Source of the DNA: a candidate division KSB1 bacterium
Lineage (GTDB): Bacteria > Zhuqueibacterota > JdFR-76 > DREG01
Direction of reading: 5' to 3'
NCBI GenBank assembly: GCA_022566355.1
Contig: JADFJB010000129.1
Coordinates: 1 to 12,536, forward strand
DNA length: 12,536 nucleotides
Part shown: positions 1,528 through 12,536 of the stretch, one piece after another
Layout of the letters: the number at the start of each line of letters is the position of its first letter
How positions within the stretch are numbered: position 1 is the first letter of the stretch
The notes under the pieces: model-generated
What the model was told of the DNA's origin: nothing
Databases searched by the model: none
What the model saw: the letters and a program-made list of their open reading frames with translations, nothing else
Program-made: the position numbers and the translations under genes

Positions 1528-1857
1528 CTATTCTAGGATTTCAACTATTTTCTTTATAACTAACTTCGTTTTTGCTTTCCTGAGTTGACCTATTTTGTAT
1601 AGAACAATACTCTTGTCAGCGGTAAAGATGCGATTAGGTCGAACGTTGCTTGCCTGTTTTAGAGAACCAGTCTCGAAGTCAGAATTCTCCAGAAGAATTG
1701 CATAAGAATCACGTACTTTTTGACTGGTTATTTGGCAAAGAATGAGGTCATCTCCGCTTAGCGCAGCGACTATCAGTGCAGGCCTTCTTTTGGCATGTGT
1801 TAGATCTGAGAAAGGAAATGGAATGACTACAACATCATCTTTCACAAATGTTGCCAC
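1528..1857 (-). CDS. MazF/PemK-family endoribonuclease toxin
   Basis: The 109-residue product has the length and N-terminal signature of PemK/MazF toxins. It starts VKDDVVVIPFPFSDLT and continues KRRPALIVA at about residues 23-31, the loop and strand that shape the RNA-binding groove, followed by LILCQITSQ at about 38-46. Family members are sequence-specific mRNA interferases neutralised by a small antitoxin. The start ATG lies inside the 3' end of the upstream antitoxin gene (16-nt overlap), which fits translational coupling. No stop or frameshift interrupts it, unlike the other toxin genes of this window, so this module appears intact. It is likely autoregulated with its antitoxin. Confidence in the family is high; RNA specificity cannot be read from sequence. 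Confidence 0.88.
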   Translation of the reverse strand: MATFVKDDVVVIPFPFSDLTHAKRRPALIVAALSGDDLILCQITSQKVRDSYAILLENSDFETGSLKQASNVRPNRIFTADKSIVLYKIGQLRKAKTKLVIKKIVEILE

Positions 1858-2036
1858 GCTTCATCTTCCTCCGGACGTAGCCAGTCTTTTTTTAGCGAGG
1901 ATTCGCTTGCAGTGGTGATTTGAAACTTATTCGTATCATTTTTATATTTTAAGAATTTGATGAAATCCAAAACTTCTTCGATAAGGTTTTCAGGTACTTG
2001 CTCGATCTCTCGTAGAAGGATTTCCTTTGGACTCAT
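1842..2036 (-). CDS. DUF2281-type antitoxin partner of MazF
   Basis: This 64-residue protein starts with an acidic helical segment (MSPKEILLREIEQVPENL, then EEVLDFIKFLKYK) and ends with KDWLRPEEDEAW. That layout is typical of DUF2281 antitoxin-like proteins found before PemK/MazF or PIN toxins. The N-terminal part probably dimerises. The acidic, Trp-containing C-terminus is the expected toxin-blocking tail. A Shine-Dalgarno AGGAG sits about 9 nt before ATG 2036. The gene overlaps the toxin start by 16 nt, with antitoxin first, as expected if antitoxin must be made in excess. Confidence 0.82.
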   Translation of the reverse strand: MSPKEILLREIEQVPENLIEEVLDFIKFLKYKNDTNKFQITTASESSLKKDWLRPEEDEAWQHL

Positions 2037-7680: not shown

Positions 7681-8073
7681 ATGGAAAAAACTGATTTACT
7701 AGAATATTGGATTAATAGTTCTAATAGAGATTTTACAACTTTGGAGCATTTATTCGAAAAAGGGGATTATCACTGGGCTTTATTTATTGGGCATCTGGTT
7801 ATTGAAAAGCTGCTAAAAGCTTATTATGTAAAACATATTGATAACCAACCGCCATTTACTCACAATTTATTATTTCTTGCCGAAAAATCAAAACTACAAT
7901 TAAGTGAAACACAAAAAGATAACCTGGTAACAATAACTGCTTTTAATATTCGCACAAGATATGATGATTACAAATTAGCTTTTTATTAAACCTGTACTAA
8001 AGAATATACAGAAGAATGGATTAACAAAATTGCAGGATTAAGAAAATGGATCAAAGAGTTGCTATTAAAATAG
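7681..8073 (+). pseudogene. HEPN-domain toxin gene with premature TAA
   Basis: The frame from ATG 7681 encodes a HEPN protein of PF05168 type. Helix 1 includes SSNRDFTTLEHLFEKGDYHWAL, then GHLVIEKLLKAYYV at about 37-50, and the RTRYDDYKLAFY motif region at 91-102. Translation stops at TAA 7987-7989 after 102 residues. The same frame continues with TCTKEYTEEWINKIAGLRKW and IKELLLK to TAG 8071-8073. Relatives read 'YDDYKL.FY..CTKEYTE.....I..LR.WI', so the stop replaces a Gln or Lys codon. The full product would be 130 residues and its 3' end overlaps the MNT start by 28 nt, the usual HEPN/MNT arrangement. HEPN members of such pairs are RNase toxins. Loss of the last helix probably inactivates it; a functional 102-aa product is the alternative. 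No Shine-Dalgarno is evident. Confidence 0.78.
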
Positions 8074-8354
8074 CGGAAAAATATGTTAACTACTTAAGAA
8101 ATAATAAATTCACTGTCCAAAAAGCCTATTTATTTGGTTCTTACGTTAGTGGTAAATATAATGAAGATAGCGATATTGATTTGGCAATAGTTATGGATAC
8201 ACTGCCTAACAGTTTTACTACCCAAGTAGAATTGATGAAAATAAGTCGAAAATTTGATACAAGAATTGAGCCTCACCCATTTGAAGAATCAGATTTCAAT
8301 ACTACGAATCCATTTGCGAATGAAATTCTTAAAAATGGTATCCGGATTACTTGA
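8046..8354 (+). CDS. MNT-family nucleotidyltransferase (antitoxin of HEPN/MNT pair)
   Basis: This 102-residue protein has the minimal nucleotidyltransferase signature GSx10DxD: LFGSYVSGKYNEDSDIDLAIV, with Gly31-Ser32, Asp43 and Asp45. It also has the family's C-terminal DTRIEPHPFEESDF. MNT proteins can AMPylate and silence the HEPN RNase partner encoded beside them, and this gene starts inside the (original) 3' end of the HEPN gene. All catalytic residues are retained and there is no interruption, in contrast to its partner. The antitoxin may therefore persist without a functional toxin, or act on HEPN toxins encoded elsewhere. Confidence 0.88.
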   Translation: MDQRVAIKIAEKYVNYLRNNKFTVQKAYLFGSYVSGKYNEDSDIDLAIVMDTLPNSFTTQVELMKISRKFDTRIEPHPFEESDFNTTNPFANEILKNGIRIT

Positions 8355-11946: not shown

Positions 11947-12297
11947 ATGAAAAAAAAGAAAATACTGATTGTCGAAGATTCATGGACGACTCTTATCAGT
12001 TTAAAAATTTGTCTCGAATTTGCAGGATACGATATATACACAGCAATGGATGGTGAAGCCGGTTTGAAAATGGCAAGATCTTTAAAACCGGATTTGATTT
12101 TACTCGATATTATAATGCCAAAAATTGATGGGTTTTCCGTATGCCAGTCACTGAAATTCGATAAAGAATATGAAAATATTCCAGTGATCCTCCTTTCTGT
12201 AAAAAATGAAACCAAAGACAAAAAAGTTGGAAGGGAAGTTGGTGCTGATGCTTATCTTGCTAAGCCATTCGATGCTAAAGTGCTAATTAGTGTTTGA
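11947..12297 (+). pseudogene. Response-regulator receiver domain, 3' end interrupted by MITE
   Basis: The frame encodes a CheY-like receiver: KKILIVEDS with acidic Glu10/Asp11, LILLDIIMPKIDG with phospho-acceptor Asp54, VILLSVK with Ser84, and LAKPF with Lys106. After residue 115 (LIS) it enters a MITE, whose terminal repeat supplies Val and the TGA at 12295-12297, so only 116 residues are made. The original frame resumes after the MITE at 12464. Five receiver helices need about 118-120 residues, so the truncated product might still fold as a single-domain receiver, but whatever followed is cut off. No histidine kinase is in the window. The 5' region 11783-11946 is very AT-rich; TTGACT near 11805 with TAATGT 16 nt on is a weak promoter candidate. 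Confidence 0.85.
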
Positions 12298-12463
12298 CCG
12301 AAAACTCTTTGCCCATACCACTCATTGTCATTTCGAGTGAATGCGAGAAATCTTATAAGTTTCTATAATTCTAATATGTTAGCATCCTTTTATGAAAAAG
12401 ATTTCTCCTCCGCTTCGCTCCGTCGAAATGACAAATGCCTAGTTTTCGTTCAGACACTAATTA
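12284..12463. mobile_element. 168-bp MITE (12290-12457) flanked by TAATTA target duplications
   Basis: Terminal inverted repeats are GTGTTTGACCGAAAACT (12290-12306) and AGTTTTCGTTCAGACAC (12441-12457), 15 of 17 matching. Flanking TAATTA occurs at 12284-12289 and 12458-12463. Internal inverted pairs follow: TGTCATTTCGA (12326-12336) with TCGAAATGACA (12423-12433), and GAGAAATCTT (12345-12354) with AAGATTTCTC (12398-12407). There is no ORF of its own. The 'GTCATTTCGA..GAAATCTT' hairpin core is a widespread non-autonomous repeat type. Since TAATTA is itself palindromic, the exact duplication length could be shorter, with longer terminal repeats. The insertion lies in the response-regulator coding region. 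Confidence 0.85.
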
Positions 12464-12536
12464 GTAAGGTAGATGAACTAACCAGCAAAACTAAAGCTGC
12501 AAAGCCTGTCAAATTTATAAGCCTAAATCCATATAA
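12464..12536 (+). pseudogene. Displaced 3' continuation of the response-regulator gene
   Basis: Removing the MITE plus one TAATTA joins ...KVLIS to KVDELTSKTKAAKPVKFI and SLNPY, open to the window end. KVLISKVDEL is a normal end for receiver helix 5 and its linker. The remainder lies outside the window, so the nature of any output domain is unknown. This piece has no start codon of its own with a ribosome binding site. Confidence 0.75.

Follow-up and report, generated by a model that had tools for sequence, protein, structure and literature searches.

A MITE with ISNCY-type ends that was very probably inserted recently into a response-regulator gene of a candidate division KSB1 bacterium

Bacterial MITEs such as MITEAba12 (PMC6382973) are short, non-autonomous, multicopy elements with terminal inverted repeats and target duplications. 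The element analysed here shares these properties. The ends and the target of the present set are different, and the set is further distinguished by ends common to many phyla and by an exchangeable hairpin core. A likeness to insertion sequences of the ISNCY NF033593 type lies in the GTGTCTGAACGAAAA terminal inverted repeats adjoining TANNTA, although the present element measures 168 bp, is non-coding and has an interior unrelated to the transposase gene. The IS1202/ISAjo2 family is comparable in having formerly belonged to the ISNCY group (PMC10132070). Its short-TSD members possess 3-5 bp duplications, TGT..ACA ends and a TnsB-like transposase, and membership under the definition in PMC10132070 was rejected due to the 6 bp TANNTA duplication and the GTGT..ACAC ends of our element. 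The REP/BIME palindromes of RAYT transposases resemble it in the paired small hairpins of the core, whereas its ends and duplication are of the DDE type.

The window, i.e. the whole stretch of 12,536 nucleotides that was analysed, carries within its last 590 bases a receiver ORF interrupted by this element. Elsewhere in the window, inspection revealed a pair of small ORFs resembling a PemK/MazF-type toxin and its antitoxin (1528-2036, minus strand) and neighbouring ORFs resembling a HEPN/MNT nucleotidyltransferase pair (7681-8354, plus strand).

With a probability of roughly 0.92 we regard positions 12290-12457 as a non-autonomous MITE whose ends are those of insertion sequences of the ISNCY class (NCBIfam NF033593), recently inserted by means of a transposase acting in trans. 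The features are the following:

11947..12297, plus strand: truncated response-regulator receiver ORF, 116 aa, its final codon and stop provided by the MITE
12284..12289, no strand: left target-site duplication TAATTA (6-bp TANNTA rule, 17 own and 81 foreign copies)
12290..12457, no strand: MITE with ISNCY-type ends, 168 bp
12290..12306, plus strand: left terminal inverted repeat GTGTTTGACCGAAAACT
12325..12336, plus strand: hairpin core, left outer arm TTGTCATTTCGA
12345..12354, plus strand: hairpin core, left inner arm GAGAAATCTT
12398..12407, minus strand: hairpin core, right inner arm AAGATTTCTC
12408..12422, no strand: loop block (approximate limits), in place of which the nearest copy (C68) has a longer block
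12423..12434, minus strand: hairpin core, right outer arm TCGAAATGACAA
12441..12457, minus strand: right terminal inverted repeat AGTTTTCGTTCAGACAC
12458..12463, no strand: right target-site duplication TAATTA (repeat analysis; TANNTA rule)
12464..12536, plus strand: detached 3' part of the receiver gene (what remains of helix 5, then the C-terminal tail), with no stop codon before the contig ends

The 168-bp element with 15/17-bp repeats described in an earlier note on this DNA was recovered at the same coordinates by repeat analysis. The direct repeat CTAATTAGT is found at 12283-12291 and 12457-12465 with a spacing of 174, the inverted arms 12284-12306 and 12441-12463 show a complementarity of 91%, and the terminal repeats proper pair at 15/17 positions. 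Its length, its terminal inverted repeats and the lack of a transposase ORF characterise the segment as a MITE. Single-strand folding gave a z of -9.05, none of 200 shuffles being as good. Neither Rfam, at gathering score, nor the phage and plasmid collections searched yielded a match to the element, and in the literature searched neither TANNTA nor the motif sequences gave anything relevant.

The truncated ORF matches Pfam Response_reg (E 7.7e-25) and ends, as previously claimed, at a TGA in the first bases of the element, so that the C-terminus of the protein reads LISV*. Helix 5 is thereby interrupted half way, and its second half and the C-terminal tail are lost from the protein. Joining position 12289 to 12464 results in 138 open codons running to the end of contig JADFJB010000129.1 at 12536, which leaves the natural stop of the gene outside the view, and the rejoined sequence is the same whichever TAATTA copy is deleted. 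The restoration of the frame by removal of 174 bp was corroborated by intact homologues: the rejoined protein can be aligned with continuous receivers at seven places, with no gap at the junction. Six of these lie in other genomes, with identities of 58% for G001:C291, 55% for G002:C11 and 46-56% for the homologues of G003, G004, G005 and G006. The seventh is a paralogue in the same genome (G000:C68; 64% identity), and a further paralogue (G000:C78) reaches 59%. None of the homologues compared contains the inserted segment or ends at LIS, two of the findings which the earlier note had named as refuting its reading. The function of the regulator was presumably lost or altered, a loss which may have been tolerated because close paralogues exist in the same genome.

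An alternative is that the shortened receiver has been co-opted as a functional product, with the hairpin marking the end of the transcript or stabilising it. The insertion lies downstream of the phosphoacceptor region DLILLDIIMP and of the KPF motif with its lysine, both of which are indeed kept in the 116-aa protein, and the hairpin is strong. However, taking into account that helix 5 is broken half way, that the gene part beyond the element has kept an open, undecayed frame, in line with a recent hit, and that the element has no Rfam match at gathering score, this scenario seems improbable.

The MITE reading is further supported by the copies of the element, whose counts were derived from sequence searches. 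In its own genome (G000; 4.62 Mb, 213 contigs, 98.5% complete) the segment has 50 BLAST matches, and facing pairs of the end sequence are numerous, about 18 of them forming paired elements with near-matching duplications. These elements are 125-270 bp long with varied interiors and ends common to all. As the earlier note had left to be checked by BLASTn, the ends GTGTYTGAMCGAAAA and a 6-bp TANNTA are common to other genomic copies, the ends being found in the approximately 18 own-genome copies and in 81 from other species among the matches listed. Comparison of the flanks revealed identical 6-bp repeats in 9/17 own and 50/81 foreign copies among the matches listed, and no identical repeats of length 3, 5 or 7 in these 17 and 81 copies. 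When only elements closed by TANNTA were counted, 67/72 had identical repeats (126 end matches listed from other species). The target duplication is therefore exactly 6 bp of the pattern TANNTA with free middle bases; the TAATTA-like target proposed previously applies to this site and is more exactly TANNTA over the copies. As a control, the backward pattern gave 0 matches versus 42 in G000 and 89 in G002 for the real pattern. A MITE of the IS630/Tc1-mariner type with a 2-bp TA duplication was rejected, since all six bases match in the 50/81 and 9/17 copies.

The closest copy (G000:C68:13440, L002) matches at 165/168 positions and, apart from a swapped loop block, differs by one substitution only. 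Together with the perfect duplication and the undecayed 3' part of the gene, this near-identity supports a recent insertion, as had been supposed.

At 16 of the 18 paired own copies the rejoined site lacks a spanning ORF of at least 100 codons; such an ORF was detected only at the window copy and at the L053 copy, both insertions lying toward the 3' end of the ORF. The window copy, being intragenic, is thus an exception among the 18. The second ISNCY-type MITE copy (L053:94-252) apparently lies close to the 3' terminus of a different long ORF, which encodes 410 aa on the minus strand once joined. Two own-genome contigs start inside elements with ISNCY-type ends (L019:1-126 and L023:1-300), as would be expected if multicopy elements had collapsed where the assembly breaks.

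The search for a transposase with GTGTYTGA-type terminal repeats, suggested in the earlier note, led to a partner in other genomes. A scan of GTDB species with TANNTAGTGTCTGAACGAAAA returned at least 115 stretches, in records including Deltaproteobacteria/Desulfobacteraceae, KSB1, Calditrichaceae, Planctomycetota, Scalindua, Brocadia, Nitrosomonas, Bacteroidetes, SAR324 and others. Full-length elements, about 1.86-1.89 kb in size, were identified in two of these stretches, L160 (Brocadia) and L078 (Bacteroidetes bin). Each encodes a transposase of about 490 aa, which NF033593 (ISNCY family) matches with 433 and 495 bits, respectively, at an NCBIfam cut-off of 325 bits. The two transposases share an identity of 40%, which indicates that they diverged while the ends were conserved: GTGTCTGAACGAAAAC is present at both ends of the L160 element, and one end in L078 is identical. 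Ends of the GTGTCTGAACGAAAA type thus bound NF033593 transposase genes in L160 and L078, and variant ends do so in G002 and G056. In G002, a genome of the same family with 89 MITE ends, the NF033593 gene (534.7 bits) is flanked by GTGCCTGAACGGAAA ends adjoining TANNTA. The transposases probably belong to what would be named the ISDol1 group.

In four full-length elements examined (L160:874-2744, L078:2887-4780, L176:1227-3135 and L177:1289-3093), several of which sit on short contigs, TANNTA is present on either side but, unlike in the MITEs, the middle bases are unequal, with chimeric assembly as a possible cause. These full-length elements thus lack clean duplications of their own, a point that counts against the proposed explanation. 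An apparent element of 925 bp in L154 was discarded, as it consists of two adjacent MITE ends; the MITE at that place measures 145 bp.

The NF033593 profile gave no match in the own assembly G000. Multicopy insertion sequences are frequently absent from such assemblies, and the assembly may lack the autonomous partner for this reason. The missing match also bears on the idea that the MITE acts as a reversible switch, its frequent precise excision restoring the regulator and causing phase variation. Such a switch would agree with the exact reconstruction of the site, the intact joined frame and the young age of the insertion, and the earlier note had already spoken of precise excision, of which the reconstructable pre-insertion site holds and an excised form was not seen. 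However, neither an excised form nor an empty-site contig was found, the own assembly is without the transposase, and in bacteria excision seldom restores a site exactly. A switch is accordingly very unlikely.

For the insertion we propose the following steps, the observed basis of which comprises the ends, the duplication, the copies, the target rule, the intact homologues and the association of the ends with NF033593 elsewhere. A transposase of the NF033593 class would recognise the GTGTYTGAMCGAAAA ends in trans and cut a TANNTA target with a 6-bp stagger; the element would be joined to the cut site, and repair would leave the TANNTA direct repeat. One copy would in this way have entered the 3' part of a receiver gene with paralogues, the protein ending after 116 residues as a result. 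The mover would have been a transposase formerly present in the lineage or one lost in the assembly.

The hairpin core requires separate consideration. According to the earlier note, the ends of the GTCATTTCGA/GAAATCTT hairpin family are fixed by this insertion. This did not hold, since in this genome most such hairpins are located in AACTTCTGAAAAAT-ended elements. In a census of TGTCATTTCGA in the own genome, GTGTYTGA ends were recorded at 8 loci and AACTTCTGAAAAAT ends in 22 rows, a few of these being second readings of one locus; 8 had neither kind of end. The long loop block GCGGAGTTTATCCTGAGCGCAGCCGAAGGGCT is present in elements with either end type, and short loops resembling that of the window element also occur in the AACTTCTGAAAAAT-ended family. 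In other species the core GTCATT[T/G/C]C was detected at 36/126 listed ISNCY-type ends, 26-39 bp from the end, and the hairpin is missing from many elements with GTGTYTGA ends, the interiors of which are unrelated. The second family, with AACTTCTGAAAAAT ends and the GTCATTTCGA core, is the more numerous in G000 (e.g. L287:220-392, L288, L289, L282).

These data could be taken to mean that the GTCATTTCGA/GAAATCTT hairpin itself is the mobile unit, REP/BIME-like and moved by a RAYT-type Y1 transposase, with the GTGTYTGA ends being incidental; both halves are small ATTTC..GAAAT hairpins, and the own genome also has cores that are not bounded by GTGTYTGA ends. The target duplication, however, adjoins the GTGT ends and not the hairpin, which largely refutes this explanation for the window insertion, and the same duplications are found at elements with the same ends and unrelated interiors. 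Furthermore, the GTCATTNCGA core was present at none of the 21 Y1_Tnp matches whose flanks were retrieved from seven genomes, and RAYT-associated REP/BIME was rejected. A hairpin moving as its own unit is thus hardly credible here.

Instead, the occurrence of the same core within unrelated ends, and of the same ends without the core, shows the core to be exchangeable, with a history separate from that of the ends. That the GTCATT[T/G/C]CGA hairpin is an independent module that repeatedly enters, or is exchanged between, MITEs of unrelated ends, within one genome and across phyla, for example by gene conversion or nested insertion, is a tentative suggestion to which we give somewhat less than even odds.

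The event as such is ordinary in kind, namely a known type of MITE insertion into one of several similar signalling genes. Its value lies in a clean and recent insertion, which fixes the ends and the target of an ISNCY-type MITE set with near-identical ends in many phyla and connects this set with a family of transposases still classed as 'not characterised yet'. Given the separate histories of core and ends, it also cautions against using the internal hairpin to name repeat families, and it is the modular hairpin alone that merits a second look by a specialist.
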